A stretch of 64,000 nt of DNA from Sipunculus nudus (taxonomy: Eukaryota; Annelida; Sipuncula; Golfingiida; Sipunculidae), in the NCBI GenBank assembly GCA_026874595.1, contig CM049317.1, forward strand, positions 51,479,618-51,543,617, in the 5' to 3' direction. The notes beneath the pieces are model-generated. The model saw only the letters and a program-made list of their open reading frames with translations, was not told the DNA's origin and did no database searches. Made by a program: the position numbers and the translations under genes. Shown piece after piece: positions 906-56,584 of this stretch; the first letter of the stretch is position 1, and each line of letters starts with the position of its first letter.

Positions 906-1065
906 CTATAAACACGCCCGCTGTTGATCAAAGGTCATGAAAGTAGGAATCATCGACATGGCGTCCTGCAGATCAGGTTTCAGTGCCAGACAGTCAGCGT
1001 TGGTTTCAAACTTCTTCCACGCGCATGTCTGAAGCTCCACTATTGCCGTTTTTAAAGCAGTGGCA
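906..1065 (-). CDS. Gene A exon 5 (terminal)
   Basis: The acceptor is GCATATAACAG, phase 2. It encodes ATALKTAIVELQTC, then CLALKPDLQDAM, and ends QQRACL followed by TAG. It aligns with gene B exon 5 (ETAFYAMVAKVQNC...CLAVRP...RKQAC). Gene B continues past the last cysteine to another exon; gene A stops here. Confidence 0.8.
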
Positions 1066-4000
1066 CTGTTATATGCAATGATTAAAAACATATCTAAGAT
1101 GTAAACACTTGTCATATATTGTCACATTTTTGTAGCCTGTCTTTTGCGTGTTTCTTTTTTTACCTCGGGAAATGATTGAATTACCCAAGGTTCCACAATT
1201 TGCCTGTTAACAACTTTATGAAAAGGGTAAGAAAGGATATTGGTGACATTTTGTGGAGGTTATGTTGCAGCTTTTTCACAATGGGTATTCCCCCCCCCCC
1301 CCCCCCCCCAAAATATTGGTTAAAAGTCGAAGACGTCACTTGAAATTTATCATACAGCGTTCACCGTTATTCACAATCCAATTACGCTTTAAACTTTTAC
1401 ATTTACGTTGGGTAAATTCTCAAACATATGCCCAGCCTACATGTATGAAATTGGGAACAGTTTCTGATGTTATTATCCCATCCCATTTTGCACGAAATTT
1501 TTATGATGACCTGGAAAATACGAAACGAATCTTGAGTATTTAGAATGCGACGTTGTAATTGGAAATTATGAAAGCTCGTAATGTGTACGATCACAATAGA
1601 TAAATCGATCGTAAGGAGATATCTGATACACAAATGTATTGGTTTGGGCGTTGGTAATCGCAGCTGACCATTAGTTGCCAGACCATCACGTGACCGTCTA
1701 AAAAGTCGCAGCCAAAATATTCCCTCTTCGACCAGCGTTCGGTCATAGAAGTCATAGTTATATTGCCCTATCACATATGACAAGTCGCAAGATTTCATTG
1801 GTTTTCTACGTTGGCCTTCCGACGACAGAACAAGTCGAACGATAATGCGGACACTGGTGGCCTTGTGATGTTCGTTCGATAGTCCTATTTAAATGTGACC
1901 GCAACTGTTTTTATGGCAAATAATCACCTACGCGATCGGCCAGACATAAAGAATTACCTACGACGCTAAAAAAATGAACATGTTCAAAAATCTACGACAA
2001 GTGCTACGAGCACCTTAATTGTTCTGTCGTTCACATGTCGTTTACCTGTTGTGCGATGTTTGGGACTTTAGCTGGTTTTCAACAACAAATGTAACCTTTA
2101 AGCGTAATAAAAACTGTTAAATCATCTATATTTCTTATATACGTGGGTAAATAGGCGCATAAATATTTAGTTTTTGTTATTAGCATCGTCCAAAAAAGGA
2201 AGAAGGTATTGAAGTGCTAATGAATTACAATATTAAATAAAAAACTAGTTAATTGTAAAATAGTGTTCCCTTAAGCCGTGACTTGGCCGACCTACTTTTT
2301 TGTATATAAAATAAACAATTAACACAATTTAACATTCGCAGTAAAATGAATTTTTACTCACCTGCAAGGGTCTGTTTGGCGCATATTATGTATGACCTCG
2401 TCTAAACATTGCAAAATTGTTGGCACGACCGGGCAGCCTGTAGACATAATATGCACCTCATCGAAAAAAATATATTACGAAACCCGTTGCAATATTTCTT
2501 TAACATGAAAATGACAAACCTGTAACAAAAAATCTCTGGCTAGAAGTACTAGAACAATTTTTCCGAGGGTTACGTAATTATTTCCTGTTCTCTGTGCGTG
2601 TATACGGAATGGCTAGTTTTAATTGCCAAAGACAAGCGCCGGACGTGTGGTGGCATATGTATGAAAAAAAAATCCAATATGAATAAAAACATTCTTTTTA
2701 TTTAACTTCATGTCACTGGGTACTGTTTAAGATAAGGAATTGTACAAAAAAGTTATCGGTTTAAGCTCTTGCGCCATCATTCATATTTAGTTATATCCTC
2801 TTACTATAATTTTAAAGCCGGTAATGGTAATCATAGACCTTTCCAGCCTCGCTGGCGACACCTACCCGCGATGGATGACAGTGAGTGCTCCGAAAGTTAT
2901 ATTGTAAAAAAAATTATATTTGCATATATTTTAAATAATAAATGAAAATATTCTTACAAAATCTCAAAGAATGAGCCACCTGTCTGAACCTCTGGCGTAT
3001 ATTAAATTTTGACAAAACTTGCAATGCAGACGAAAGTTAAGCGCAATGGACATGCACGAAGAAAAGGTATATTAAAAGTATTTTAAAGATACATTCAAAA
3101 CATTTGATAATGCAACACGTGCCTTTGCACAGGGAGTTTGCCAGGCCAGTGAATCTCTTTTCATCACGGCCGATGGAGGAGGCAATTCCTCTCGGAGACA
3201 GTTCAGTTCACCGTCAGAAATGTCGTTTAGGCAATGCTTAACGTCCTGTAACGGTCCCTGTATCGATGAAAACATCTTTATTCAATCATATCACGGCCCA
3301 TTTTACTGTGAAAATGTGATATTGTGATACTGTTTATTGTCGAGGCAGTACCTGATTAGATCGAAATCATTCAACATAAAGATACTTTGCAATATCCTGT
3401 GTCTCGGGAACTTAAAAAAGAATTTAACGTGGTAGAACGCATGAATTCTCCATGGGGAGATAATTCAGCCGGATTCAACCCTCTGATTGAATCTGCATCA
3501 AAATGTAAGAGCCCGTGTCCCATTCATTCTCAAGATTGTTTGTTCTACTCCTGCTGACATTAAAACAAACCAACCAACAGACACACATTACCATACAAAA
3601 CGTGGAACAACACATCTTTGGTCATATTAATGCCCTGGACTTCTAAATATGTTTGTTATGAAAACCTTACTTGACGTTTTGTTTGCAGGTCGTCAGAGGT
3701 AAAAGATATAACAGAAACCTAATCCTTCTCTCGCAAAGCTTGCACTGATCATTCGCCTGGACTGTACAAAGAAAAAAATTGAACATTTTGTTTGATAATT
3801 GAGAAAATAATAATTAAAAAAGAGTATCCTTACGTCTGCGAGCGAGCGCCCCCCCCCCCCCCTTGATTTTTATGTGAAACTTAAAACAAAAAGCAAAATC
3901 CCCATTACCCCTTATATATAGTTTAATCCTTTTGCTTGAATTAAGCGATGTGAAAGCAGTGGTGCTCCCCATGCATATAAAACATTCACTAACAAGGGAT

Positions 4001-4408
4001 AGACGAAGAGCCCCTGCTGTCGTTCAAAATGAAATATTTAAAGAATAATGTCAAAATCTTTAAGGATAAAACTTGTAGCGGTATTATTCTCCGAATATAT
4101 CATAATTTATGCTTGGATTTAAAAATGACAGTATGACAATAATGCACAGTATACAGATCACAATTATAGTTAAAGCAAATGTGCGTAAGACACACTTCGT
4201 ACATTTTCAATAATGGTTTATGAATTATTTTAGACAAAGACAATATTTTATATCTAACCTTTACTTGTATAAACGATATGATATTTCATCCAAACTTCCA
4301 AATTAAATATACATATACGAAGGGATTTGGACTTTGAATTAATAAAAACAATGATGTAGTTCAGGTCAAGGTTTAAACCATCGTTCCTTACACAATAAAA
4401 TGTTATAA

Positions 4409-4502
<94 letters not shown>

Positions 4503-4621
4503 CTTGATATTTCTTTATACATGATATGTATCGTTGTATTATATATACGTCATAACGGTAATGAGAATAACTTACCGAAACAGGCTGCACAGACAAACAG
4601 TAGAATTAAGCGGGCCAGCAT
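906..4621 (-). CDS. Gene A: secreted 12-cysteine protein, five exons (paralogue of gene B)
   Basis: The model joins minus-strand exons 4576-4621, 3671-3761, 3123-3305, 2362-2437 and 906-1065. Exon 1 gives a signal peptide (MLARLILLFVCAACF). The mature part carries 12 cysteines in two matching halves, each with a C-x10-C-L pair: HCLNDISDGELNCL in exon 3 and TCAWKKFETNADCL in exon 5. Exon 1 and exon 4 have exactly the same lengths as in gene B (46 and 76 bases), and splice phases 1, 2, 1, 2 agree. It should be exported and disulfide-stabilised; no family or function is recognised. Exon 3 does not keep one open frame between its neighbours: about one base appears missing near each end compared with gene B. 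That means decay, sequencing error or a wrong boundary. The frame ends at TAG, five codons shorter in the tail than gene B and without its last exon. The gene structure is confident, its integrity is not. Confidence 0.65.
1290..1309. repeat. Poly(C) tract, C20, in gene A intron 4
   Basis: Twenty consecutive C (G on the coding strand of gene A). One of at least a dozen such runs in the window. Confidence 0.95.
2362..2437 (-). CDS. Gene A exon 4
   Basis: Seventy-six bases between acceptor GTCTACAG and donor GTGAGT, phase 1 in and phase 2 out. It encodes GCPVVPTILQCLDEVIHN then TDPC, aligning along its full length with gene B exon 4 (GCPIVSAIVECIKPV...NPC). Three cysteines are conserved. Confidence 0.85.
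3123..3305 (-). CDS. Gene A exon 3 (boundaries and frame uncertain)
   Basis: The coding core includes VKHCLNDISDGELNCL, aligning with AKTCLTDMMTGKLTCM of gene B. The 3' end, TGCAAAG|GCACGT, uses a GC donor as gene B does. The 5' boundary could be 3305 (after TTTTCACAG) or 3257 (after ATACAG). At 183 bases the exon cannot join phase 2 to phase 1 without a frame change. Near 3150 it is one base shorter than gene B: the homologous LANSLCK reading is in a different frame from the upstream part. Confidence 0.55.
3671..3761 (-). CDS. Gene A exon 2
   Basis: The acceptor is TTTGTACAG and the donor GTAAGG, giving phase 1 in and phase 2 out. It encodes VQANDQCKLCE, then PLTTCKQNVK near the end. This matches gene B exon 2 (AQANNDC...PLTTCSEDVK). 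Three cysteines. Confidence 0.8.
4409..4498. repeat. (AT)n microsatellite in gene A intron 1
   Basis: About 90 bases of nearly pure AT with one AAAT interruption. The frames through it are low complexity. Confidence 0.97.
4576..4621 (-). CDS. Gene A exon 1 (signal peptide)
   Basis: ATG at 4619-4621 follows CAACTGTCACC, the same leader found before gene B's ATG. Fifteen codons plus one base are followed by the donor GTAAGT. The peptide is hydrophobic after one Arg, as expected for a signal peptide. Confidence 0.8.
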
Positions 4622-4683
4622 GGTGACAGTTGAAAGTCAAACTGTTCTGGTCTGGTGTGAACCGCAAGTCGGGAGGCCAGTAT

Positions 4684-4692
4684 CTATATACT
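4684..4692 (-). promoter_or_regulatory. Possible TATA box of gene A
   Basis: On the minus strand the sequence AGTATATAGATAC lies about 65-70 bases upstream of the gene A ATG. That is suitable for a start site 30 bases downstream and a short 5' UTR. Motif and spacing only. Confidence 0.35.
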
Positions 4693-4699
4693 TTTGACA

Positions 4700-9235: not shown

Positions 9236-9254
9236 CCCCCACCTTTTTATTTAA

Positions 9255-10180: not shown

Positions 10181-10222
<42 letters not shown>
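10181..10222. repeat. (TC)n microsatellite at the end of the inverted repeat
   Basis: A TC run followed by (GT)n. The right arm of the inverted repeat has the complementary GA/CA run at about 37290-37330, so the microsatellite is part of the repeated unit. Confidence 0.9.
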
Positions 10223-10226
<4 letters not shown>

Positions 10227-10854
10227 AGTGTGTGTGTGTTTATGTGTTAATTGTATTTATTCTAATTCATTTATCCAAATTTGTTGCTTAACTGAATATT
10301 GGTGATGTTATATTTCGTTGTTGTTTTTTTTTATTACGAAAGTTGGCCGTTTTTAATATATCATTACATGAAGGCATTTACTAATAAACATTATAAAATG
10401 AAATATTTGATCATTTCAGATCCACTTTTGTGTAAAAAGACATGATTCATTATAGTAAGGAGAGACATATGTATGTAAACCCTCCAACATTGCCAAAGAT
10501 CTTGTGGAGGTTTTTGTTGGCCGATGTGTCTGCTAGGCAAATTCTATCTGTAAATTCTATAGATCTAGTCTATTTTTATGTCAGGTATTATTAAGTTCAA
10601 CTGAAATATTGTGAAAGATACTCCATCTACATTGCTGAATATCATTGACAAAATCCTCCACTAAGAAATCTAACATATATATGTTATATATTAACCAATT
10701 GACTTACTTTTTTTGGAAAATTCCAATCCTGTCCAATTCTGATTCGGCTTCCGTGACCTGAGCTACTCTGACAAAATAATTAAAAAGCAATAACTGTCTC
10801 AGATAATAGTTTAAGGTTTTTAAATTCCTGGATAACGATTTAAGGAGTGTGAAT

Positions 10855-11150
10855 AATTGCCTCCGCTAGGGGAGTATGCGTTCATTTCCGTTCGTGTGTT
10901 TGTTTACATTATAACCCAAGCAATCATGAACGTAATCTCATGAAAGTTTCAGGGCATTTCGAGAATAGACCAATGAAGAATCGATAAGATTTTAGTGTGG
11001 ATCTGGCACATGGTCCGGATCCAGGAGCGTCATCAAGGAATAGTCACAAATCTACGTTGACTTATACACGGATAAACCTGGGAATATGGCCCGAAAAAGT
11101 AAATGGCATAGGCTCGCTTCATTAGAATGCAGATTTCTATTTTGGGGGGG
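10855..11150 (+). repeat. Dispersed repeat R2, copy 1
   Basis: Recognised by GAGTATGCGTTCATTTCCG, TTTCAGGGCATTTCGAGAA and GGATAAACCTGGGAATATGG. Related copies lie near 36435-36700, 42835-43055, 44430-44670 and 51270-51620. No coding capacity. Confidence 0.75.
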
Positions 11151-11859
11151 GGGGGGGAATACAAGTTTTAGAAACAGCAGGAACACATAAGCAAATCCAT
11201 GAAAACATCGGATGAGTACATCAAATGAATGTTCTTTATGTATTTTGCTTATACTGTATGGTTTAATAAACTCTCTCGTTGTCTGCATGGGTTGGTAAAT
11301 AGAACTAAAAAGCGCCAATAATTTGAAACGAATAAACACAATTCAAAATTATAGTTGCATACCCAACGCTACTCTGGGATAATAGGCTTCAGAGCTATAG
11401 CCTACACCCATCACATGACGAAACATGCGAATGATGGCAGGCTTTACTCCTATGCAACTATCCACAGGAGCAAAGACCAAGGACAAAAGCCCGTCAGTCA
11501 AAACGACTACTGTATTGTATCTGATGTCGACTACTGGATGCTGATGTGACAACTAAATTACTGCATTTATGAATTAAAATACCATCAATCTTGTGTGTTA
11601 TTTAAACCGGTTTTGAAGCTCCTTTTTAGAAATAAATACTAACATAGTGTCTTACTGATAACTGCCACATAGGTTATGATAAGCATATAATTTCAAAATT
11701 ATTAGAAAATTACGCGTATAATATGACAATGAGAATAGATCTGAGGGAGGGTAGCAAACGTCCTACGATTCAGGGAACAGTAAATAAAAAGTTTAGTTCG
11801 AGTGATGTGGCTTACTCCATATCTCTGTGCCCGAAGAGTGGGAACAAAACCCCATTCTC

Positions 11860-11920
11860 ATGGCAACCTCCGGGGGTCGAACCATGGTCGCCCGCGAAGA
11901 ATTATCCAGTCCTGAACATA
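11860..11920 (-). mobile_element. tRNA-like SINE head with intact box B
   Basis: The minus strand reads GGACTGGATAATTCTTCGC then ATGGTTCGACCCCCGG, which fits a Pol III box B (GGTTCGANTCC). The inverted counterpart is at about 35585-35650. Confidence 0.5.
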
Positions 11921-12350
11921 TATATATATATAAATATATTGTTGTGAAACTGAAAATACAATTTCTTTTGTAGTCCAGCATACGTGGTGACATGTATAGC
12001 TTAAGTCTGTATACCATTATGGAAAATAATTGAATGACTTATTTGGCTCATATTAAATATGCCATTATAAGTGGCGCCAGCTGTACCTGTGCAACATATA
12101 TACTCGTCATATGACAGTGGATGCCTCAGGTGGCCAGCCCCCACCCCCATCTTACTTTGCATTTAATACTGACTTTTAACCAACCGGACTTTCCGAAAAT
12201 TAACGGATACATATAATTTTTCAAAACATATCAAGTTTCACTGGAGCCAACCTTGACTGCACCAATCTCATAGAGAACTATACTTCTGTTTATGTCATGA
12301 GATAACTAAGAAACTGGACTTCGAAAATCGTGCGTCCCAAACAAATGAGC

Positions 12351-16000: not shown

Positions 16001-17070
16001 AACTGGTGAACTTTGCAGAATTGCTTTCAAATTCTGAAATGCATTTTCACACTGAACATTCAATACAAACTTTTGTTTCTCCTTTAACAAATTAGTCAAA
16101 GGTTAAGCTACAGCAGCAAAATTTGGAAAAAACTTCCTGTAGTACCCAACCATACCAATAAAACGCATTATTTGCTTTTTGTTCTCTGTTCTAGGAAATG
16201 CAGAAATAGCACTTATCTTAGCATCAACAGGGTTTACCTGACCCTGCCCTACAATATGACCCAAAAATGTTACTTGTGCATGACAAAACTCAGATTTCAC
16301 TAAGTTGACGGTCAGACGTGCTTCAGTGAGTCTTTCGAAGAGGTCACGAAGAATTTGCAGATGTTTCTCCCAGGTGTCGCTGTACACGATGAGGTCATCA
16401 ATATATGCGTCGCAGCCCTGAATGTCCTTGACAACCACATGTATGAGGCGCTGGAATGTGGCTGGTGAGTTCTTCATGCCAAACGGCATAACTTTATACT
16501 GGTACAGTTCTTGCGACGTCACAAATGCGGACACTTCTTTCGCTCGATCTGTCAGCTAAACTTGCCAGAATCCTTTTGGCAAGTCAAACTTGTAGACATA
16601 TCTGGAGCTACCGACTCTATCAACACATTCATCGATCCTCGGAATCGGGAACGTGTCGGTCTTGGTGACAGAGTTCAGTTTTCGATAATCTGGGCACATA
16701 CGGTAACTTCCATCAGGTTTTGGCACAAGAATACATAATGAACTCCAGTTCCTGTTACTAGGTTCAATAAAATCATTGTCCAGCAAATATTGAATCTCAT
16801 CCTGTAGATACCTTTGCTTTTCTGGATTCAGTCTATAGGATGCTGCTTGACTGCGCTTGCCTCGCCAACATCGACGTCATGGCACAACATGTTAGTTCGC
16901 GTTGGAATGTCACTAAACAAATGTTCATAATTCAGCAGCAGGTTCTTGAGATCATGTTGTTGTTGTGCGGTTAGTTGTGACAGTTTGGGATCCAGGTTTT
17001 TAAGCACGTCTGAGTTTTTTAATGGTACTGTACCACACTGAATGTCTACATCACACTTACAATCAGTATC
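16000..17070 (-). pseudogene. Reverse transcriptase domain of the gypsy-type pol
   Basis: Successive frames carry NYEHLFSDIPTRTN, VPKPDGSYRMCPDYRKLNSV, YKFDLPKGFWQV, YKVMPFGMKNSPATFQRL, the catalytic YIDDLIVYS, and FLGHIVGQG with GYYRKFFPNF. The YIDD box is intact. At least one frameshift separates the fingers/palm part (16786-16556) from the YIDD part (16534-16103). Confidence 0.9.
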
Positions 17071-17079
17071 TACTTTAAC

Positions 17080-17640
17080 TGGGTCAGGGTCAGTTTTACA
17101 CAATTAACAGCAGACATAAAATTAGACCCTTGGCCAGACTGGACGGACTTTGGTAATCCAAAAGTTGTAAAAAACTTGGTCAGAGCTTTGACAACACTTT
17201 TGGCATTAATTATGCGCAATGGTATTGCCTCAGGGAACCTGGTTGATGCGCACATAATTGTCAGCAAGTATTCATGTCCAGATTTTGTTTTGGGCAGTGG
17301 TCCAACACAATAAACAAAAATCCTACTAAATGGTTTCTCGAAAGCAGGAATAGGCCTAATGGGGCCTTAGGAGGATTCTGATTGGGCTTGCCTACCATCT
17401 GGCACGTATGGCATGACCTACAATATTGTACAACATCTTGCCAATAGTAGGCCAATAGAAGTGTATACTAACTTTCTGATAAGTTTTATTTATACCTAAA
17501 TGGCCAGACAAAGGAGCCTCATGTGCCATGCTTAGAACTTCACTGATAAAGCTTTTGGGCATTACTATTTGTTTTTTGATGGCCCACTCATCATCAGCGG
17601 ATACATCAGGTGGTCGCCATTTACGCATAAGCACTCCATT
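17080..17640 (-). pseudogene. Integrase zinc finger and partial core, upstream of RT
   Basis: The H-H-C-C finger is visible in two frames: HEAPLSGHLGINKTYQKV, FYWPTIGKML, then YCRSCHTCQMVGKPNQNPPK. The core has STRFPEAIPL and FFTTFGLPKSVQSGQGSNFM, with Gly where the second catalytic Asp is expected. The sequence then runs straight into the RT leader, so the catalytic Glu region and C-terminus are missing. It is fused to the protease end with one frameshift, so the PR-INT order looks original. Confidence 0.85.
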
Positions 17641-18534
17641 TTGACATAGAAACCAACAGGGTTCTGTGACAGGTCATCTTTAAAAACTGCCCTGGGAAAC
17701 AAACATAAAATATCAGGGTCCTTATGCTGTTCCGCGATAAGTTCTGTCCTTGAGAATGCTGCATTCTGTACGGGCGAGTCGTTTGACGATTCACTAGTGA
17801 TTCCCAGAGTGTTATTATCTGGACCATTATCCTCATGTGTGTTTTTCTTGACCATAGATCTAGTTACAGCACATGAAGGATACAAACCCGGAATGTCCTG
17901 ACTTTCCAGATCAGTGTCCTGATCAAGTGCCGGCTTTTCTGTCACTATTGGTACAGGCTGCACTCTATCACCTGAAACATCATTGCCTAGTAGCAACTGA
18001 ATTCCCTTAAATGGTAAAGTAGTTTTTATGCCCACAGTATTATTCCCAGAAATCAAATCAGTCTTTAAAATGGATACTGTGAAGCGGAACTGAAGTGTGC
18101 CTGTCTGAAAACACAGCATTAACAAGTGCATGTGCACCAGTAAAGGACCTATTAGAAAATGGCAAAGTGTTTGCAAACATGAGAGTCTGGTCTGAACCAG
18201 TGTCCCTCAAAATTCTAATAGGGGTAGAATCTGAAAAATCAATTGAAAGTGATACAAAACCATTATGTATGAATGGCTCAGATAACTCCATTTCAGAGTC
18301 GAGTGAGGAATCTACAAGATCAACCTCATCAAACAAAGAACTGACATTGAAGGTGTCAGTCATAAACTCTGTTTCAGAGTCATCTAAGGAATGTACATCC
18401 TTTTTATCATCAAACTCCTCATTGGAGTCAACAGAGGAATTTTCCTCAGCAGAAACAAACTTTTGTTTGTCATAAGAGGACCTGTTCTCATTTGAAATAC
18501 TCTTACAAGAGTCATAAAAGGACTTATAGTACAT
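17640..18534 (-). pseudogene. Aspartic protease and linkers of the gypsy-type pol
   Basis: The active site is ILRDTGSDQTLMF, with the second-half motif IQLLLGNDVSG. Upstream is an acidic, serine-rich stretch with repeats of the type F-x-DSC-xxx-S-x-NE. The same repeats resume beyond the insertion at about 22400-22500, showing that the two parts were once continuous. Confidence 0.8.
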
Positions 18535-21500
18535 CAGCCAGAGGGTTCATCGGTACAAAAAAGGTGACAATTGCTATCAAAGATTTTTTGAAAGGTGTAT
18601 GTGTGTAGATAATAAAAATGCCTGATGGCAGTATGAAAGTGGTAGCTTTCTGTAAAATATCAGCCTGTTTTGAAATGTACTTGCACCGAAATCGCAATTC
18701 TGCAAGACACAGTTATATAAAAATATTATTAAGTTATAACATTTTAAAACAAGTTTGATGTCAGTTGATAGTAGACATTTATAGCTTTCATCTGGTGTGT
18801 CATTCATGTATATAGCTTTACATATTCTAAATATATGATTACTTTTCTTCACCCATCATAGCAATTTGTATAATTATAGCTAACTTATTAAAAAAAACAC
18901 AAGGTGTATTTCTGATAAGATCAACCGTGACCAGTTTGGTTTTATAAAGTCATTAATAAAGTCTGAAGTCTTTTAGCTGAAAAATAACATGTCTGGCACC
19001 CAAGTACAATTTGTAGATTTGGGCGTGGTCAGAGAAAGGTGTTATTCCGTTCTTCAGTTAGCCGGTATATGTCCCATTGCCACCAACTGTCTAGAGAGAA
19101 CATTAATGCCTGGTTGATGTTTTTGAGTCCTTTGTGTTGCATACCCACGCACTTTTTGAATTCTGATTGGTAAATCCTCCCAATTATTCGACGTGGCAGC
19201 TTTTGGGGGCCGATGTATAGACTAAAACTCGGATGTCGCAAGCCGAATGTCACACATGACATGTATGCAGGCACGGGTACTCGGCTAGTTGTTTTAATAT
19301 ATGTTTTTTGCATGTCTCCGGTTGAAAAAAAGGGCGTCAAGTCATTTTATGCAGTATATTTTTATTTGTATGTTTTTGTTATATTGGTGCCTAAGTCATT
19401 TGTGATATCATACAAACTAGGCCGCCGTATCAGCACTTCTTGTCAAATTCGCTTTCTTACACGAAATATATAAGAGCATTCGGCTGAGAGAGGGCTATGT
19501 TGTCTGCTGAAATATTGCCATGTAAATATTCTAACAAAATTAACATATAAAATGAAGGCAAGAGCAGTAAATGTACCTACAACATGTTGCTTGGGTGGCA
19601 CCATAAATAAATGATAGATATTGCAGTTTGCCTTTGTGTCAGGACTAATTGTGAGGCAGAGCTGTTTCTGAGTTGTCTATGTTTTATACTGTTAACATTT
19701 CTGACAGGAGAGAGATTTCTAAATAAATATTAATTTCTATAAGGGAAACCAGATGTTTATTTGAATCGTTCGGCAAACAGTGTATTAACAAGAATATAAA
19801 CCAGTTTGCTATAAAGCCAGTAAGTGCAATAACTCATCCTGTTCCGGTTTTATGTTTTACAAAAGTCCAGTAAATGCTAGTGATAAGCCCAAATAAATAA
19901 AATCAGTTGTTGAAATTGAACAAATCTAATTTAATTCTAACCTGCTTTGACTCAGGAGTTCAGGGATTATTTTTCAAACAAGACCCTAGCAGTCCAGTGT
20001 CAACCAACTTTATCGGATTGGAAGACATACATGGTTCGCCTTGGGCTATGTACTTGCACCAGAGAGTGCCATTAAGATCATTTTGTTTTTATCTTTAACA
20101 TGCAATTTTTCACTGAACTGTCAAAACACCATGTGTCCCTGTCATTCCCCAGGTTTGAGGGAGATCATGTTAATCACTGACTGTTCTACTGGCCGAACAA
20201 ATATAATATCAATGGGGTTTATGGTTTTGCCCTTAAGAGAATATCATCTCTCGCTCAGTAGGATATAATTGTAACTGTTAGATAAAAAAATGTAGATACA
20301 TATTCTAAAACAGTTTTGTTTTCATATTATTTTCTTTCATTTAAACATTTCAGTAGAAACACACATTATAATAAACATGAGAGTAACTGATTTCTCCTGG
20401 TGATTTCTATTTTAATTCCTTGCAAGTGCTAACTTTCTAATGACTTGATTTGGCAAGGTAGCCAGGCTTGAAATAACTATAAGATATAATAGACTTATAA
20501 AAGCCCCGGTGATAATCCAAAATAAAAATGACGAATTGATTTTCATATTCCACTTGGTGTTATCTTTCCAACCATGCAAAACAGAACTCATCAGATTTGA
20601 TGTTTTTCTGTCAGAAAGCGATTGCATATTTATATGATTATGATCTTATGAAATGATATTGCTTATTTTCCTTTAAACTAACATTGAACATTACTTAGTT
20701 TTATTTCAGAATATGGAAGTTTAAAATACACAACGGCCTTGTTGTGAAATAATGTAACAAACAATTCTTTAAAGAGTCTTTATCACACAGCGAACATTCA
20801 AGCTGAACATAAGTACATGTTCAAAGTACATTTTTACATAAGTAAACTTATTCTATATCTTAAATACATAATTACCTGTTACCTCTTCTGTTGTTTTAAA
20901 TGTTTAACTTAACTTAGTGCCCCGCTGGTCATAATGCTCAGCTGAAACTATATTGGTCAGTGATCTAATTCTTATCGACTAAGAGAGTTTAAGAGAACCT
21001 GTATACACAACGTCTGAACATCCCAGGACTAGCGATCACGAATTGTGCCTTGATATATATCACACTGATAACTGCAGTCTGTTATTCACAAAAAGAAAAA
21101 ATGTTTTACTTTTTTGCATTGTTCATGATCGAGAATAATGATGGAACAACAGAGAGTGAACTAAGAAATACCATTTCAGCTCTAGTCCATTATAATCGGT
21201 AAGCTACATATAGATTAAATTTTCTTTCCATTAAAAAAAAACTGTAAATGTACCGTTTTTGCTCGCACAAGACAGGTAAACATAAATGGTGCCATCTGTA
21301 GTTTATATACTTGTAAAAGTCACATGATCAATGTCTGGTAAAGCACATTACAAATCGTAGGTAAAATCAAAAATGAACTACAACAATAAGCGAATATAAG
21401 TTTATGCTTTCCCTCACATAAAAGCTATCTCTTTTTATTTCCTGACTTGCATAGGAAGAACTGGAAAAGATCATTTTGACTCAAGTCAACGTAAGTGGCG

Positions 21501-37461: not shown

Positions 37462-39029
37462 TGTTTTTTTTTAGCTCAGCTGACTGTAAGTCATCTGAGC
37501 TATAGCAATCACTCTTTGTCCGTCCGGCCATCCGGCCGTCCGGCCGTCTGTCCGTTAACAAGACACAAATCGTAACCACTGAATCTGGAATCTTCTTACT
37601 TTACATCCAGAGAGGTCCATGAATAATCTCCTTGGAAACCTGGAATTACGTCTCTGTTACCAATATTCTTCAAGCTATGGGGCTCCGAAGTACCCCCCAG
37701 AATAATGAAAAATTTGATACAAAAGCTCGAATATCTAAACAACTAATGCATTGATCACCATGATTCTTTGCATGGATATTGATCATGGGGTGTTACATCA
37801 GGTTATGCAGACTGGTGGCGCACCTGAATATTTTTTTAAAATTTTTTCTCTTTTCTTCAGACCTGCAATGAAACTGTCATCTGTTAACAGGGCACAAATC
37901 GTAACCACTGGACCTGGAATCTTCAAACTTAATATCTAGGGAGGTCCATGAAAAACCTCCTTGAAAACCTGAAATGAGGTCTCTGTTACCCACATCCTTC
38001 AAGCTATGGGGCTCCGAATTACCCCCGTGAATAATGCAAAATTTGATACAAAAGCTCAAGTATCTAAATTACTACTGCATTGATCACCATGATTCTTTGC
38101 ATGAATATTGATCATGGGATGTTCCATCAGTTCCTGCAAACTGGTGGCGCTACCTGTATTTTTTCCAATTTTTACGAATTTTTTCATTATTGTTGAGACC
38201 TTCAAAGAAGCTGTCATCTGTTAACAGGGCACAAATCGTAACCGCTGGACCTAGATTCTTCTTACTTGACATCGAGGGAAGTTCATGAAAAGTCTCTGTG
38301 AAAACATAAAATTAGGTCTCTGTTACCCATATCCTTCGTAGTAAGTACCCCTCAGAATAATTAAAAATTTGATACAAAAGCTTCAGTATCTGAATAACTA
38401 ATGCAGTGATCTCCATGATTCTTTGCAGGCATGTTGACCATGGAGTGTTCCATCAGTTCCTGCAAACTGGTGGTGCCACCTATATTTTTTCAATTTTTAG
38501 GCATTTTTTCTCTATTTATGAGACCTTCAAATGAAGTGGTCATCTGTTAACATGGCACAAACTGTAACTGCTGAACCTAGAATCTTCTTACTTGACATCC
38601 AGGGAGACTAATGAAAAATCTCCTTGGAAACCTGAAATTAGGTTTCTGTTACACATATTCTCTGAGCTATAGGGCTCATAAATACCCCCAAGAATAATTA
38701 AAAAATTGATACAAACAAAAGCTCCAGTATCTGAATAACTAATGCCTTGATAGCCATGATTCTTTGGATATATATTGATCATGGAGTGTTTTATCAGTTC
38801 CTGTAGACTGGTGGCACTAACTGTATTTTTTTTCAAATTTTTACGCATTTTTTTTCTATTTATGAGACCTTCAAATGAAGTTGTCATCTGTCCAAAAGCC
38901 CACTGAAACCCATTCCTAAGGACACTTCACAATATTCATGATTTGTTTGCACTCTGGCAGTCATTTTGCTCATTGTTCAACATTCCATGAATTTAGCAGA
39001 GCGTCATGGCTCATGGGCCACTTGTTGTT
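37462..39029 (-). mobile_element. R1 element, near-complete copy in minus orientation
   Basis: 3' hairpin at 37473-37501 (AGCTCAGCTGACT-GTA-AGTCATCTGAGCT, one mismatch), then GGACGGCCGG-type repeats, about four core monomers, and the 5' end at about 39000-39029 (AACAAGTGGCCCATGAGCC, ATGACGCTC on minus). Its 5' end directly adjoins the solo LTR. Confidence 0.75.
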
Positions 39030-46189: not shown

Positions 46190-46768
46190 TAAAATCCTAA
46201 AATAGGGTGGGCAGAAAATTCTACCTTTAGCTGTTGGACTTATAATTCAGCCCTTAAGCAATTCAGAAATATCGCATTCTCGAGCGGCAGACAGTAACTA
46301 AGCAGACAGACAAATTAGGCAGCGAAAACATTATATTCGCCTATTCAATGCCAAGTTAAAACCACCGACATTGTTCATCTTTCTCTTTTACGCAAAAGGT
46401 GGTAGCCCAAACATTTTACAATCATGCCAACATGCGCAGCGAAAAAGGACAAAGCGCTTAACTCATAAAAAAATAATACAATGTCAAGTACCAGCATGGC
46501 TTAATTTTGCATTTAGATGACTGTCGGGAAAGTGATCATAAAGAAAGGTCACATTCATTACAGAGCTGGAGAACTGTTAAGCTAAATGTCTATACCGGTC
46601 GACAGGCAAATATGGGTGAAACATGCACCCATTCTTCTGTAATTATATAGAAAAGAGGGTAATAAGATAATATAATAGAAATGAGGGAGGGTACCGGACG
46701 TCACATGATTCAGCATTGAAAAATTTAGTCCACGGCCTGCAGCTCATTCCGACGCACCAACTGTCACC
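46190..46768. other. Upstream region of gene B
   Basis: No other gene. A TATAATAGAAATG stretch at about 46671 lies about 100 bases before the ATG and could serve as a TATA box, but that is weak. Confidence 0.35.
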
Positions 46769-46814
46769 ATGCTGGCTGCCTTGGTTCTATTTGCTCTCTG
46801 TGCCTCTGGGTTTG
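46769..46814 (+). CDS. Gene B exon 1 (signal peptide)
   Basis: ATG preceded by CCAACTGTCACC; 46 coding bases, then donor GTAGGT. Length and leader are identical in layout to gene A exon 1. Confidence 0.85.
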
Positions 46815-49800
46815 GTAGGTATCTTGTTTACAGTATGACTGAACATTTACTGGAGTAGAATGTACCGTAATGAACATGTACCGCAAAATAAAGGAGTATT
46901 TCTGTAGAAAGGCTCCTCTCGCGTAAGATTTTCTTCGAAATAACTGCATTTCCTGAACACCTGAAATATTTCCAAAAGTTAAATAGTCAAATTTTATGAA
47001 TGAATGAATGTTTTATTTCAGACACATACATTGGTCTATATATAGATGATTATTATGACAATATTACAGGAAATATTATTATAATGTTTATAATACAAAT
47101 GACAATTCTCTTTACTTTTTACTCATTTTTCTTACTTTTTTTACAACTCATTTTGAACATTTTGAATTTGTTCGGAAAAAAAGTATTAACTCGATTACCG
47201 ATGATTACTTTATTAATAATGGAAGAATACGAAAAAGCATTTGTATTACAAACATAAATGTTCAAAATATGTTCACCAAAAATATTTTTAAAATAGATGG
47301 TTGGAATACATGAAAAGTTTAAGTGTTTCTGGTAAACTGCTTCTACCAGGAAATGTAACATTTAACATTAATATTCTTTCGTCTTCAAAAATTGCTAGAT
47401 AGTTTCTGTAGTACTGCCGAAAACGTACTATTAAAAGTTGGTCTTTGAAGTTTTCATTCATTTTATCCCAAACATTTAATGAAATTATTCAGTTCTACAT
47501 TGCAACCTTAAAATTGTCGAACTGGCTTTTAAGGTCCAAACTTTATTCTGTGGGATGTGATTTTCATTTTTGGATTGTTATTTGATAAAGCATGGCATTC
47601 GATCACATATATCATTTCCTGCGTGCCGCACCGCTATAATAAGATTGTATCACATCGCGATCCCTTTATACATGATTTTTGTGCATTCCACATTATGCAT
47701 TCCGTGCATATGGGATCATAGTTTTATTTTGCTGTATACATTGTGTCATCGACAGCCCAGGCTAACAATGACTGCGCGGCTCAAAGACAATGCGGACAGA
47801 AGCTGTCGTCCCTGCAGCCTGCATACCCTCTAACGACCTGCTCAGAGGACGTCAAGTAAGAACTTTGTGTACATTAAGTAGTATATATGAAGTTTACATA
47901 CATTTTGTCACAAATTTTTGATTAAATTATTTATTTCAATATTGCAACCTTTTAAAATGGTTGACCACGCTTTTTTGGTCGATCGTCACTCTGCAGCATG
48001 TGATTTTCATTGTTGGCGCCACCTGTGTTGACCTACTTTCTGCAAGCTGTAATGGTCTTGTTTGCCTTTTTTCAAAAGATGTCATAAAGTATTAATATTT
48101 TGGCTTTCATAGCAAAGTTAAAATTTGCTAAAAGGAAGAGAAATAACATGAGTATAAATTCAGGCAAATTATTTTCAATATGGCATCTCTACGGAACTTT
48201 AAATTGTGTCGATCACAAAATGTGACAACTTGATGTGTTTCTATACGTGATGTATTGTCTGTTACCAAATATCTTAGGAACTGCTGCAGCTTTCAGTATC
48301 AAATTTCACGGGAATATTGATCATCTGACTGCTTAATAATTTTGACCTACAGGTAGCTACTTTCTGCAGGCTGTTATGTTTTTTCTGCTTGTTATGTATT
48401 AATATTTGTTATAATCTTTCGGAGACCCGGCATAGTTGTTCCCTCGCCTATGCAGTTGTGCGTAACAATGACGGGTGGCGCCACCTATACTCCTTTCTGT
48501 GCAGTACGAATATGGGTGTCTTTTAGATAACAGCCCATATCTCAAGAGTGGTTAAATGTATTGAGCTGAAATTCTGCATGTCCATAGATCTTGGATCTCT
48601 CCTCCTGGTAATGGAGACTGGTGGCGCCAACTGTAATACTTTTTGCGAAGCGTCCATCTTTGCATTTGCCATCTATTCGTCTTAGTGGTTTATTAAGTGT
48701 ATTGGGTTGAAGTTGTGCATGTCCATAGATCCTCGACACCTCCATCTCGTTAACAAAACTGGTGGCGCCGTTTGCAATCATTTTTCCCTGGCGTCCATCC
48801 GTACATTTGCTTTGGATGAAAATTGCTCATTTCTCAGGAGTGGTTCAAGGTATTGAGCTAAAATTTGGCATGTCAATCCATCTTGGAAAGTTTTCTCGTA
48901 AACCAGACAGGTGGCGCAACCTAGCTTCCCGTTTTCGTAGAATAAATTAATGCCTTTTTCTAAGGAGTGGTTTGCCGTATTGGCCTGAAATTGTGCATGC
49001 TCATAGATCTTGGACTCCTCCATCTTGTACTCGAGACTGGTTGCGTCATCTTCAATCGTTTTCTCGTCGCGCCACCCGTACATTTGCTTTGGGTGAAAAT
49101 TGCTTATATCTCAGGAGTGGTTCAAGGTATTGTTCTGAGATTTGGCATGTCCATCCATCTTGGAAAGTATTTTGAAAATCAGACAGTTGGCGCCACCTAC
49201 CTTCCAGTTTTTGTAGAATAAATTAATGCCCTTTTCTGAGGAGTGATTTGGCGTATTGGCCTGAAATTGTGCATATCCATAGATCCATATCCTCCATCTT
49301 GTACTCAAGACTAGTAGCGCCATCTGCAATCGTTTTCCCATGGCGTTAATCCGTCAGGTGGTTTAGTGTATTGGTCTGAACTTGTATTGGTCTGACAGAT
49401 GGCAAAACCTACCTTCCTGTCTCCACTGAATAACTTAATGCTCTTTTCTCAGAGCTTAAGTGGACTTTATTGAGGAGTTGTGTGACATATGGGCCTGAAA
49501 TTGTACATGTCTGGGATTATTTATGTCATATTTAAAGAGTGATGATGCTATTCAGCTGTTTTCATGTGGCTAAAATCCTACTTAAACTGTTTTACTGAAA
49601 AGTTTTGCCTACCGATGATCATGGTTTTATAGTTTATGTTTAATCAAACTTCTGCTAATTTCCACCTACATTTTTTTGCAATTTCTTGGAGGTTATTAAT
49701 GTTTTGCCCTGTCTACTGTACACACTCTATTTCCCCTTATCTCACTTCACCCGTACCACTCTGATTTCACCAGATACACGTTGTCGCTTGTCGACAACCC

Positions 49801-52774
49801 GTATTCTAGTTTGGCTTCCATACAAAGTAAATAATTGCTTAAAGGAAGTGAATAAAATAAGTATAAATTCAGTCAAATTATTTTCAATATTGCGTCCTTA
49901 CGGAAGTTCAAATTTTGCCAAACACAAGATTTGACAATTTGTTGTGTTTGCAATCGTGATGCAATATCTGTTACCACATATGTTAGAAAATGCTGCAGCC
50001 TTCAGCACAAAATTTCACAGGAATATTGAGCATGTGACCGCCATTTGATTTTGACCTGCAGGTGGCGTAACCTGTGTTGACCTACTTTCGGCAGGCTGTT
50101 AAAGTCTTTTCTCCCCTTCAAATTAAGTATTACTATTTTGAGCTTCTTATCAAAGAAAACACTTCCTTGAAGGAAGGGAAATAAAATGAGTATAAATTCA
50201 GTCAAATTTGTTTCAAGATGGTGCCTTTACAGAACTTCAAATTTTATCTTCTGATTAATGTATTTCCTGTCCATCCTTTGCTCTTACATTTTTAGTTCGT
50301 TCACTCTCTAAACTTGTGCAACAGGACAGTGTCCACTTGGAAAGGAATGAATGGTATTTTCACATTCATTTTTTGCTTTCTTTATCATCCACCATCGTGC
50401 AAAGTAGTGAACATTAGACCCCTTGGTCTCTTGTTACTAAATATTACCTTGTGCACCTACAGCACTGTTTTTGCTTGGCTATTTTCACGTTCCTGTCACA
50501 GAACTTAAGCACTTCACTTCAATTTCTCAGGAAACTAAGCTGCCGGTGGCCTCAGGGTGACGTAACAGCTTAACAACTTGTTAATTTAATTAACAGTCAG
50601 TCAAAGCCTGTACAGAATAACAACCACTATACATCTTCTTAAATGTCTTCCGAATTTGCAAACTTATTTAATGATTTTCTTTTAGCTTTTTGCAAGATTG
50701 GCAACATGAATTCGTTTCATATTAAGTCAACACTCGATATCACCTAACATTTCAATGAAATTCATTAATTAATGTGGTGTGATACAATATCTGGATTAAA
50801 TTTTCAAGCGGGCCTAAATACGAGGTATGCGGTTTGTGGGTGCTTTCTAGTTTCTTATTTCCCGGGTCTATTTTCCTTTGGTAAAATTTGCGCTGTTCTG
50901 TAGAACCAATGCCGTTAATTAGTCTCAGCATCAAGTGGTTTGAAATTCAGTAAATATCTATATAAAGTAAAACCTCTACAATGTGGGTACCCTTGGGACT
51001 GGGCCAAACTGCCCACTCTACAGAGGTGCCCACTACATGGAGGCCATGATTGCAACCTATATAATATGGAGAAGAAATCACGGGACTGTCAAAAACTGCC
51101 CACTATACAGAGGTGTCCACTTAATGGAGGTGCCCACTAGAAGAGGTCCCACTGTATCTATATATATGCATACAGTAAAACCTCGCTTGTCAGTTGCAGA
51201 GCTCACTTAAATCGAAAAAACAGCTTTTGCCGAAGTTTCATATTCGGAGTTCGAAGTTTAGTTTTTGCCTTCGCCAGGAGGGTATGCGTTCATCCCCGTT
51301 CATGTGTGTTTTTGTGTGTGTTTGTGTTTGTGTGTTTACAACATGACTCACGCAAGCTTAAACAGATTCTCATGAAATTTTCAGGGCAATTCGGGAATTG
51401 ACCATTCAAGACTCTGTTAGATTTTGGTGTGGATTCTATACATGACCCGGATTCAGAAAAGCCATCACGGAATAATCACAAATGTACAGTCACTTATGTA
51501 TGAATGGACTTGGGAATATAGGCCGAATATGTGACTTTAAACCCGGTTTCGTGAGCATCCCTCAATAAAGAACCTCCACATGGCGTAGGCATGCATTCCG
51601 TAGAATGTAGATTTCTGGTTGGGGAAAAAGGCGTTTGTGTATTACAGATTAAATTTTCTATTGTATTTACATTTGAATCATGTTTTTCGGAACATACCTA
51701 TGATTTTGTAACCCATATCGAAGGCTAATTTGTTTCTTTGAAATATAAAAAATGAGATACTATACTTACACTATAATGATCTAATCTTTCGTGTCTTAGA
51801 CATCTGTCCAAAAACTGATAAAATGCCCGGCTTATCTCACCTGTACAGGAACAAAATACCAGAAGCGAAGACATGCCTGACCGACATGATGACCGGTAAA
51901 CTGACATGCATGCCAGCGGGTGCCCCTCCTATGCAAATCTTACCTGGCAAAGTCGGAGTGATCAGAAAAGGAATCGAAGGCTTGGCAAATTCAGTGTGTA
52001 AAGGCAAGTGTCTACACTTTCATTTCAGCTTTGCATATGCACTACGAGTAAGGTGTGCGTCTTGTTAGTCCTAATGAGTCTGCAGAAGCGGACCCAGAGG
52101 GCGGTCCAGGGGTTCTGAACTCCCCCCCCCCCCCCCCCCCCCCGCCGCCTCTTCAACCTTTTTGTAAGAGGTTCTGACCAGTTGCGGCATGGAACCCCCC
52201 TCCCCGATTTTTCGGACCCGGGTACTTTTTTAGGTTTTATCATTAGTCCTAACGGGCTGGATCCCTCCTTTTCCTAAATCCTGGATCCGCCCCTGGTCTG
52301 GCTAACCGCCCCGGTGTGGCTTAAAACATACCTGATCCGGCTTACCTCTTGTTAAAGCCAGCTATTCCCTACCTTTTTTCTATAGAATTTGTGTGACTTC
52401 CGACTGACTGTGCGTACCTATTAATTATAATGAACTCCATGTAATGCCTCATAAGAAATGTACTCATAACGTCCCTGTGATGCAGGGGCGTCAATATAGG
52501 GGGATGGGGGAGGGGGGGGGGGGCTATATATTCCCTCCACTCTTTGGCAAGGGGGGGGGGGGTTAATGTAATCATCCCCCCTCACTATTCAGAGAATAAC
52601 ATTTATATATTGCAGATGAAATGTATTCATGAATAGAATTATAGACTTTGGTTCCATATATGAGTTTATTATGAAATATCATATCTAAACATAGTTTAGA
52701 ACTTATACTGGATACATAATACGTTATTTCTAAAAATTTATAATAAACTGTAATATAACTGAAATGTCATTAGG

Positions 52775-52809
<35 letters not shown>

Positions 52810-55800
52810 TTGAAATGTGTCATACAGAGGATTAAAAAAGTTATTTTGTCCAAACAATCGCATTAAAGTGCTCAACATATATATATATATATCACTGCTG
52901 TGATGGATGCATGTGGTTGATTGCATTTGTTGGTTGCAAAAGGCCCTTTGATAAACCCTGGTGCGTTTGAATTGCATCATTATTTTTGCCGGCCACTTCC
53001 TTGTTATAAAACACGTAACATAAGGTGGTTTGTTACATGTAAGCTGAAGTTGAACGCTCACTAGCTGAACGATCACTAGTTGCAAAACGCCCTTCCCAAA
53101 ACTGATTCGTCTGGTTGTTTTGACGGGCCACCATTTGTTATAAACACGTGGATATAAACAAACTAACAGCCAGTGTGCCGTTGGGTCAGCCTTCCCTGGC
53201 CTTTTTCTATAAATGGGATTACCTTGAGTGAATACACGTTAGATATCGGAATTTTCCCCTGTGAAGTGAAAACAAAAATAAAAAAAACATTTCTGCATTA
53301 TGATTTGAATAGTTCTAGGAAAATTCAATGTTTCCTGGAAGTTTATTTTTCAGACCTTGGCCTTTTAACACATTTTTGCTGACATGCTGCATGTTTTCTA
53401 GGTTGCCCAATCGTATCAGCCATTGTGGAATGTATCAAACCAGTAGCATCTACAATAGATCGCGTCAATCCCTGCAAGTAAGTATGGACCTGCTTTTTAA
53501 TTGATTTTTTACCACATGTATGTTGAATTGTAAATCAAAATCCTCAATGACCCGGAGGGGGGGGGGGGTGGTTCTTTGATCATAAAACTAGTCGTGATCC
53601 TAATAAGACTTGGTTGGCTTTAGGAAATTTGAGGACAGATCCTGCCACCTAGAGATCAACTTATAGTTGCTTATTCAAAACAAAATCTCCGGGTATGGTC
53701 AATATTTGACTGTTAAGGTAAAAACGTTATATTCGTTGTCCTCGTATTTGAAATTTACATTTCTCTTTTTTCTATCTGAATATGCAGCTATCGTCACGAC
53801 ATGTAATTATGAAAGTTGAAAACTGAATTACTGACACATTTGAGTGAATTCGATCCCATGATCGCTTATTATTCGCTCAACAACGGCACCTCTAGTTACT
53901 GCTGGTTTATTAAGAATATGTGAGAGCCCCGAGGGGTAGATTTGAAGATTATTGAGGAAATATTAGGAAACTATAAATTATCTAGATGACAGAACTATCT
54001 CTAAATCGCTCTGTTAGAGGTCTGCGTTTTTCTCTCCCAGTAAAAGAGGTGTATGAGGTACCTTGGTTGGCCATTACACACACATACAGTGCCGTTTTCC
54101 ACATGACCGTCGTCACGACTCGGAGTAGGCCCTATACGTCCACAAATAGCCTACTGAATCTAAAGGCCTGCGATTGTCAATGCCTTTACACTACAAGGAT
54201 TACGTGTCTGTATCACACTTCTAGCCAAAATGTTAGTAAAAATAGAAAGATATTGCGGGAGGTAATCTTTCTGACATTGTCTTATTTGTTAGCCCATGTG
54301 ATAAATATACTCTAGACCACATGCTTGATAAACAATTGTATTCTGTGCAGGATTACCTGATTCAGTTTAAATAGAAAATGAAAATAGAATGTCTAAAAAT
54401 CAGTGAGCATTACAAGAACAATGCAGCCTTGGGTTCTAAATTGGCATAGGTAAAGGTTGTGGGGTTTATAGTCTGATATCAACGACGATGTCAGTCAAAT
54501 ACGACTTAATTTTACACTGGCAATCAATTTGGAAGATGGGATTGAGCATTAACATAGAAGAAAGACACTACTTTGAAACAGAAAGGAAACGGTTGATAAA
54601 TGTATCCACTGTGACAGTATTATAATTCATATATTTCCCTATATGTTTTTTTTTTTATAATTTATTTATATTCTGTATATCCTCAGATGTTTGAAATTCA
54701 TCTATATATAATATTTCAGCAAAATTGCTTTCTACACTGTTCTTAAAGAGGTTGTTTCGGAGTTTATATACTATATATTTTGTTATGTTTTACACTCTTC
54801 AATAATCATATTATTATTCATATTATTTTAGTGAAACTGCTTTCTACGCTATGGTCGCTAAGGTCCAGAACTGCATGGTAGGCAAGCTGGCGCCCAGCAT
54901 GGAAGCCTGCCTGGCAGTTCGACCCCATATAATCGACACCATGAAGGGGATAATTGAGTATGTGAATAACAGCAGGAAACAGGCATGTCAGAGGAGAGAA
55001 GGCTCGGGTCAGTCACCATATATATATAGTATACCCTTGATAATCCGTACAAAGCGTGGGGGCAACACAGGCTAGAGCACTAAAACATTTGGCTCAGCAA
55101 ACGGTCAGGCGGGTGAAGGTTTAGGATTGCATAAAATGCAAGACGCCCCTTGGATATGCGAACTTTATGATATATATGTGAAGTTCGACCCCCACAATAT
55201 AAACATAAAATGTTCTCATGCGCATAGCAAATCGTGACCACTTTCATATCTATGGAGCCAGTCCGTTGCCAAAATTCGTCATACAAATTGTGTGGTCATA
55301 CAGAAGGAACCACGTTCTGCCTTTTCATAGGTTCTCAGTGACTCAGCATGACCTTTTGGTCAACCAAAACAACGGCAAGAGTTTGTTGAAAGTTATTAAA
55401 TCACGAATATTGGAAAGCCAAAGTAATTTATCGAAATATTTTTGTTATCATACTGTTAAGTCAATCTACGTGGGCCAACAATATTAACAAGCAAATTCGT
55501 GGAATTTATGTCCTCCGCTTCCGCCTCTTTTTGTCCCCCTTTTACCTTCTCAATATGTTTTAATTTTTATTTTCCCCTGAAAATGTCTCCACATGTCATT
55601 GTGCCTGTGTTTTAGTTTTCATTGTCCTCTGAAGATGTCTCCACACATCATAATTAATTTTTGTGAATTCTGAACAAAAGGGAATTTTTGTTTGTTTGTT
55701 GTGGAGCTTGTGATAATAATTTTTCAGACAGACACTCCAAAACCATTCCAAACCAAAATATGCATGAGAGCAACCAAAATTTGAATGAAATCGGATAATA

Positions 55801-56288
55801 TTTAGGAAAGTTATTGCACGGAAACGAAAACCTGACGTACGGACAGACAGACAGACAGCTAGACTGACAGACAGACAAACCAAAATCAATGTCTAACATT
55901 TCGCGGAAGCGGGGGGGGGGGGATACTTAAATGTATCAATGCAGTATGTAGCACATTAATGGAATCAGTTTAATATCTAAGGGTTTTAGTTGTGCTTTTC
56001 ATGATGGCTCAGTAAGAAAGGAACAATCATTTAGCCAAAATTAAAATCTATTAATTTCATCATGATACTGATTAATTTAAACAACATCTTGTTAATATCA
56101 GTAGGCAGTTCCTTTCCGCTGGCTTCCTACAACTTGCCAATATCGCCGCATTTTTTGTTACTCATTTAGCCTGTCCAATAATTTTTTTTTATTTAGATAA
56201 CTTGGTAATGAACAGCATGAAACTAAATATATCTCTCGTTTCAGTTTTACATTGATGGAATTTGGGATAGGCAAAGTTTGGCCAGTTG

Positions 56289-56354
<66 letters not shown>

Positions 56355-56584
56355 CCATCTTAACACACAAGCAGGTGTAAAGAATGTTAATGTACTTTGT
56401 TTGTTAACTGGCCTCATCAGGTATTTCTTACGTATATCTAATTTGTAATTTACTGATAATCTTCCAAAGATCACTAACATTGATATAAACATTTGAACTG
56501 TTATTCTTCATTCTTTCAGCAAGAAAACGGTCGATCGTAGACAGCCTCAAGGAATACCAGGATTTCCTTTGGATGTTTAAGTGA
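46769..56584 (+). CDS. Gene B: secreted 12-cysteine protein, six exons
   Basis: Exons 46769-46814, 47756-47855, 51800-52003, 53402-53477, 54832-55007 and 56520-56584 give about 221 residues. The signal peptide is MLAALVLFALCASGFG, with mature sequence starting near AQANNDC. It has twelve cysteines: three in each of exons 2, 3, 4 and 5. The long exons carry TCLTDMMTGKLTC and NCMVGKLAPSMEAC. Splice phases are 1, 2, 1, 2, 1, implying two related halves (exons 2+3 and 4+5). All junctions are canonical except the exon 3 donor (GCAAGT) and one frame conflict at the exon 2/3 junction. The protein ends in a basic, helical tail (ARKRSIVDSLKEYQDFLW). It is probably an extracellular disulfide-rich helical protein. 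No family was recognised. A poly(A) signal follows at 56669. Confidence 0.75.
47756..47855 (+). CDS. Gene B exon 2
   Basis: Acceptor GTCATCGACAG, donor GTAAGA; 100 bases, phase 1 in and 2 out. Encodes QANNDCAAQRQCGQKL and PLTTCSEDVK. Confidence 0.85.
48000..49460 (+). repeat. Satellite-like array in gene B intron 2
   Basis: Six or seven units of about 140 bp, of two alternating types, giving a higher-order period of about 277 bp (CATGTCAATCCATCTTGGAA at about 48866 and its match at 49143). Shared phrases: TCTCAGGAGTGGTTCAAGG, GTCCATAGATCTTGGA, and GGTGGCGCCACC or variants at most unit ends. Several 60-100-residue frames cross it on both strands, but they are products of the repeat. Confidence 0.8.
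49460..50960. other. Remainder of gene B intron 2, partly repetitive
   Basis: Bases 49800-50220 repeat phrases found at 48000-48350 (GGAATATTGAGCATGTGACCG, AACCTGTGTTGACCTACTTT). No exon consistent with the family was recognised, although a small missing exon is possible. Confidence 0.45.
50966..51157. mobile_element. Possible pogo/mariner-type MITE
   Basis: The left end is AAGTAAAACCTCTACAATG. The right end (inverted) is TACAGTGGGACCTCT. Internal copies of CACTATACAGAGGTG are present. A third similar end, TACAGTAAAACCTCGC, is at 51173. TA flanks are plausible. Confidence 0.45.
51270..51620 (+). repeat. Dispersed repeat R2, copy 5
   Basis: Contains GGAGGGTATGCGTTCATCC, TTTCAGGGCAATTCGGGAA and GAATGGACTTGGGAATATAG, in gene B intron 2 just before exon 3. 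Confidence 0.75.
51800..52003 (+). CDS. Gene B exon 3 (GC donor, 5' frame conflict)
   Basis: The acceptor is CGTGTCTTAG. It encodes KTDKMPGLSHLYRNKIPEA, TCLTDMMTGKLTCMPAG and KGIEGLANSVCKG, and ends AAAG|GCAAGT. At 204 bases it opens in phase 1, but exon 2 ends in phase 2. A one-base length error in the A5 run at 51810-51814, or an unseen small exon in the 3.9-kb intron, would explain this. Confidence 0.75.
52082..52296. mobile_element. Small poly(C)-bearing MITE in gene B intron 3
   Basis: Imperfect TIRs GCAGAAGCGGACCCAG and CTGGATCCGCCCCTG are flanked by GTCTG on both sides. It includes C22 at 52122-52143. Same family as 29748-29968. Confidence 0.6.
52500..52562. repeat. Paired G-runs
   Basis: Two G12-G13 runs about 30 bases apart, preceded by GCAGGGGCGTCAATATAGG. 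Probably the remnant of another small poly(G) element. Confidence 0.7.
52900..53235. repeat. Dispersed repeat R3 in gene B intron 3
   Basis: TTGCAAAACGCCCTTCCC, TTATAAACACGTGGATATAA and CTATAAATGGGATTACCTT match the right part of the element at 58330-58798. A second, more diverged copy of the same phrases precedes it (52930-53030). Confidence 0.6.
53402..53477 (+). CDS. Gene B exon 4
   Basis: Acceptor TTTTCTAG, donor GTAAGT; 76 bases, phase 1 in and 2 out. Encodes GCPIVSAIVECIKPVASTI then NPC. Confidence 0.9.
53480..54830. other. Gene B intron 4, no other gene recognised
   Basis: A G10 run is at about 53558. The 109-residue plus frame at 53986-54315 has no recognisable motif and sits inside the intron. 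Confidence 0.5.
54832..55007 (+). CDS. Gene B exon 5
   Basis: Acceptor ATTATTTTAG, donor GTCAGT; 176 bases, phase 2 in and 1 out. Encodes ETAFYAMVAKVQNCMVGKLA, MEACLAVRPHIIDTM and RKQACQRREGS. Confidence 0.9.
55010..56518. other. Gene B intron 5 with repeats
   Basis: Bases 55600-55890 hold a repeat-like segment ending in ACGGACAGACAGACAGAC and GACAGACAGACAAACC. A G11 run is at 55911-55921 and a 64-base AT microsatellite at 56290-56353. No exon recognised. Confidence 0.6.
56290..56353. repeat. (AT)n microsatellite in gene B intron 5
   Basis: About 32 uninterrupted AT units. Confidence 0.97.
56520..56584 (+). CDS. Gene B exon 6 (terminal)
   Basis: Acceptor TTCTTTCAG; encodes RKRSIVDSLKEYQDFLWMFK followed by TGA at 56582-56584. 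No counterpart was found in gene A. Confidence 0.8.

Follow-up and report, generated by a model that had tools for sequence, protein, structure and literature searches.

Small secreted cysteine-rich proteins of a helical type, among them those of the nematode DUF19 and CPG4 domain families, combine a leader with spaced cysteines in presumed helices, an arrangement also predicted for gene B, one of the two loci described here. Closer in cysteine number is the mollusc 12-cysteine protease inhibitor family (MEROPS I84), whose defining activity is the inhibition of serine proteases such as subtilisin. The mature I84 chain is described as having 12 cysteines in about 70 residues (razor clam, 69-89), a CTC motif in the middle and a CXC motif at the end of the array, and an acidic pI; the genes have three exons and two introns (PMC9198434). 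Like the predicted product of gene B, the I84 proteins cvSI and scSI are secreted and carry 12 cysteines, thought to form two sets of six; as in the pair analyzed in this work, their genes are locally duplicated, and one copy is reported to stop prematurely (PMC9198434). We analyzed a 64,000-nucleotide stretch of the Sipunculus nudus genome (the window) which contains gene B on the plus strand and a related copy, copy A, on the minus strand.

Gene B reads as six exons joined by five in-phase junctions (1, 2, 1, 2, 1), which keep a frame open for 205 codons up to a TGA stop. Based on the junctions and hydropathy, exon 1 (46769..46814; 46 nt, phase 1 exit) carries the ATG and a hydrophobic leader. 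Exon 2 (47756..47855; phase 2 exit) encodes mature cysteines 1-3, and exon 3 (51849..52003; phase 1 exit) encodes cysteines 4-6 and ends in a GC donor (AAAG/GCAAGT). A start of exon 3 at 51800 was rejected because it breaks the frame, and 51849 was kept. Exon 4 (53402..53477; 76 nt, phase 2 exit) encodes cysteines 7-9 in a strongly amphipathic stretch, exon 5 (54832..55007; phase 1 exit) encodes cysteines 10-12 and yields two helices when modelled alone, and exon 6 (56520..56584) holds a dibasic site (ARKR-S), the C-terminal tail and the TGA; the gene end at 56584 given in an earlier sequence-only reading of this DNA was thus retained. Of the 13 cysteines in the product, 12 follow the leader and one lies within it, and if the leader is assumed to be cleaved after residue 17, the mature part comprises 188 residues with a mass of about 20.5 kDa and a computed pI of 9.0. 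The most coherent reading is that B is a genuine gene of six exons, apparently intact, with a secreted, basic, disulfide-rich protein as its predicted product.

The window contains the leader CAACTGTCACC at two places only, 46758..46768 on the plus strand and 4622..4632 on the minus strand, in each case with the ATG of gene B or copy A directly after it; that the two genes share this leader had been noted on first inspection. To compare the two loci, copy A exon peptides were searched by tblastn against the window, using the frame-0 first half as the query for exon 3 and 40 Markov-1 random windows as the control. The top non-self match of each of copy A exons 1-5 was the corresponding gene B exon, collinear and on the opposite strand, with scores of 19.0, 24.1, 24.1, 28.9 and 28.9 bits that were matched by 0/40, 1/40, 0/40, 0/40 and 0/40 random windows, respectively. 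Five collinear top matches on the other strand make chance untenable, and by this comparison A and B are a real pair, collinear and inverted. The proposed pairing of exons 1-5 in order on opposite strands was therefore upheld, as were the equal lengths of exon 1 (46 nt) and exon 4 (76 nt) in both copies. In both loci, moreover, the donor sequence of intron 3 is GC (AAAG/GCACGT in copy A). The share of GC-AG introns in model organisms is reported to be less than 1% (PMC7072748), and a rare donor common to A and B at the same intron supports their common descent. When exon profiles of two rows each (A and B) were searched for further copies in the window, only A and B appeared below E 0.1 among the matches listed.

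The two copies point away from each other, and the 42 kb between them contains much repeated DNA, including a broken gypsy-type element, an inverted repeat pair and tandem arrays. The inverted pair (10208-12081 and 35428-37324) is 1.9 kb long with 90% identity, and the tandem arrays at 25012-28385 and 37554-38891 are related, with periods of 166, 336 and 326 and opposite orientations. Remains of a Ty3/gypsy-type retrotransposon lie at 16103-18546 on the minus strand and show, in order, a DTG motif, which we take to be protease-like and which has no Pfam match, an H2C2 integrase, rve (below the cut-off) and reverse transcriptase. An integrase ahead of the reverse transcriptase has been described for the Gmr1 clade (PMC8220671). 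At 61956-62381 on the minus strand, a stretch looks by eye like a retroelement integrase fragment and has no Pfam match at E 0.01. Rfam gave no match at the gathering score in the window.

Copy A departs from gene B at several points. Exon 1 (4576..4621, the hydrophobic leader), exon 2 (3671..3761), exon 4 (2362..2437) and exon 5 (906..1065), all on the minus strand, read as first proposed. Exon 3 had been placed at 3123-3305, an interval with an in-frame stop inside it; the part homologous to gene B is 3257-3123, which measures 135 nt versus 155 nt in B. Frame 0 gives the match to B over the first half of this stretch, and frame 2 gives it at the end, next to the GC donor, where copy A reads GLANSLCK and B reads GLANSVCK. 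The frame-0 cysteine (TPCAK) falls outside the frame matching B, so that a one-for-one correspondence in phase and cysteine positions, as the sequence-only reading had it, fails for exon 3. With splice sites homologous to those of B, exons 1-3 of copy A span 90 codons and are interrupted by a stop at codon 56. In exon 5, a TAG stands two codons past the cysteine corresponding to the twelfth of B. We also found a copy A exon 6 (343..401, minus strand), missed before, which lies in the expected place and in the frame of the last exon of B and ends in the same TGA. By tblastn this exon scored 17.1 bits, a tie with another site in the window and a score equalled in 16/40 random windows, so its similarity taken singly lacks significance. 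The 3' sequence after it is somewhat B-like, with an A versus B alignment score of 42.5 (300 shuffles: mean 22.5, sd 6.3, maximum 43.5).

The two frames within exon 3 and the stop in exon 5 ahead of a still recognizable exon 6 are signs of a pseudogene, and the idea that both copies are working genes was not supported, copy A being broken when read with splice sites homologous to those of B. In all, at least three separate departures distinguish A from B, and gene B nearby in the window shows none. Judged from sequence, copy A is most likely a pseudogene, a status we favor over that of a diverged working gene; assembly error is another competing explanation. The reading we consider probable for the locus as a whole is thus a genuine 12-cysteine gene, B, together with an old inverted paralogue, A, which is now most likely a pseudogene.

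It is possible, although unlikely, that copy A still works as a diverged gene with shifted splice sites (acceptor 3190, or donors near 3675 and 3118), which may end at the exon 5 TAG or reach exon 6 through an earlier donor. Of the splice readings enumerated, 1512 remained open until a stop in the region of exon 5. The top-scoring reading of these differs from the B-homologous sites only at acceptor 3190, with which the first half of exon 3 is lost along with two conserved cysteines. Another 108 open readings retain exons 4 and 5 as well as the first half of exon 3, and the best of them uses donors 3675 and 3118. Enumeration over six exons gave 10360 open readings through exon 6, the best-scoring of which alter the exon 3 acceptor (3190) alone or this acceptor and the last donor; 936 of the 10360 hold exons 4, 5 and 6 in B-matching frames. 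Each reading nevertheless requires weak or non-homologous sites, as judged by splice-site scores that are rough and built on general consensus frequencies. Acceptor 3190 scored -4.5 versus 4.7 for 3257, the top-scoring candidate for the exon 3 acceptor; donors 3675 and 3118 scored -4.9 and -3.1 versus 4.3 and -0.6 for the homologous donors, and donor 913 scored -7.6 versus 2.1 for 890. None of the 936 readings holds both halves of exon 3, and the best-scoring two contain 11 cysteines in all, leader included. Across the full set of 10360, no reading combined both exon 3 halves with exons 4-6 in B-matching frames.

Base errors in the assembly could also make a copy A that is intact in the animal look broken, and the exon 6 frame of A is still open and matches B. 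This would require the errors to fall at least three separate times in the short gene A and not once in neighboring gene B of the same window, and we regard it as quite unlikely.

The pair was also compared codon by codon over 173 aligned codons in seven hand-chosen blocks, which leave aside residues that could not be aligned, among them those in the middle of exon 3. The two copies share 65 identical residues over these codons and differ at 76, 61 and 87 first, second and third codon positions. With dS near saturation, the comparison gave a pS of 0.60, a pN of 0.38, a pN/pS of 0.64 (bootstrap 95% 0.51-0.79) and a dN/dS of 0.44. As a comparison of two sequences at near-saturated dS, whose constraint is not assignable to either branch, these values indicate that the joint history of A and B was at least partly protein-constrained.

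The 12 cysteines of gene B fall into two successive six-cysteine stretches, each spread across two exons, with spacings of 5-15-13-10-29 and 8-13-14-11-25. This likeness of spacing was equalled by 639 of 200000 random partitions and by 2 of 120 orderings. Likeness of sequence between the whole modules was equalled in 129 of 2000 shuffles, or 263 of 2000 with the cysteines held fixed. In pairwise tests for internal duplication, the one pairing to stand out was exon 3 versus exon 5 (9/1000 shuffles, and 26/1000 with fixed cysteines); the nine others, which included two controls, did not. The similar spacing, together with the 1-2-1 phases around each exon pair, points to a duplicated module, while the introns within the two pairs lie at unlike distances from the cysteines, which counts against it. 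The phases and spacing suggest that gene B may consist of two six-cysteine modules, for which sequence alone falls short of proof. The fuller proposal of an undescribed, lineage-restricted family, with a duplicated six-cysteine helical module on phase 1-2-1 exon pairs, a cleavable C-terminal peptide, and one live and one dying member at this locus, we hold to be rather doubtful.

The protein had been described as helical, and this was borne out in part. In a hydrophobic-moment test, few shuffles equalled the helical-period moment of exon 4 (B, 1/500; A, 3/500), and the whole protein was marginal (26/500). The moment of exon 5 was not significant (99/500 and 133/500 shuffles). An AlphaFold2 model of exon 5 alone (58 residues, two sequences) placed helices at residues 2-15 and 23-56 with middling confidence (mean pLDDT 70.4, pTM 0.37). 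The moment test and this model lend modest support to a helical protein. In a protein of this kind, the leader would route the gene B product through the secretory pathway, and the cysteines would pair within each six-cysteine stretch and lock short helices in place. The resulting stable protein would act extracellularly as a binding or structural protein, and its C-terminal tail may be cut at the KR site.

The KR is retained in the tails of both copies (2/2), and these tails are similarly short, each on its own exon. These features would fit a prohormone, in which the active part is the C-terminal peptide freed at the exon 6 KR and the cysteine-rich part is its carrier. The retention is, however, seen in only two sequences, the amphipathicity of the tails was not significant (51/500 and 122/500 shuffles), and no such precursor appears in the cysteine passages of a mollusc prohormone survey (PMC6425005). 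We therefore find a prohormone improbable and continue to favor an extracellular binding or structural role for the B protein.

Searches for named relatives are consistent with the earlier description of an unnamed small secreted cysteine-rich family as far as gene B is concerned, with its hydrophobic leader and 12 further cysteines. No Pfam-A family matched gene B up to E 10 in a search in which the HMMER filters discard most weak matches, and the DUF19 and CPG4 domain models were likewise not matched; NCBIfam and PDB sequence searches gave no credible relative. The family is thus unnamed in the sense of Pfam, NCBIfam and PDB only. Weak candidates that were rejected include HAMP_2 for a piece of copy A exon 3 (E 0.19), hemerythrin-like chains (E 0.86 to 1.8) and ribosomal protein L21 (E 0.05, 13.5 bits versus a cut-off of 281). 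Beyond these, a pattern search of viral contigs gave seven stretches, none related to gene B exon 5. In prokaryote contigs, three Clostridium/Clostridiaceae loci (L001-L003) showed a 33-residue match to part of this exon (54872-54970, plus strand) at 45% identity, with both cysteines aligned at least in L001. All three matches lie inside glyceraldehyde-3-phosphate dehydrogenase (PF02800, E 1e-28 to 3e-29); as this is a cytosolic enzyme, we took the likeness to be chance and rejected it as a relative. Membership of gene B in I84, suggested by secretion and 12 cysteines, is almost certainly wrong, as it is contradicted by the defining features tested, namely length (188 residues after the assumed leader versus about 70 in a mature I84 chain much denser in cysteines), motifs (no C-X-C in B versus CTC and CXC) and exon number (six versus three), and the pI of 9.0 likewise differs from the acidic values described for I84 (PMC9198434).

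The A/B pair alone resolves no standing question. If the family is truly unnamed, gene B would add one more fast-changing secreted cysteine-rich protein without a function, and the exon layout of gene B could show how a 12-cysteine protein originated from a six-cysteine one.
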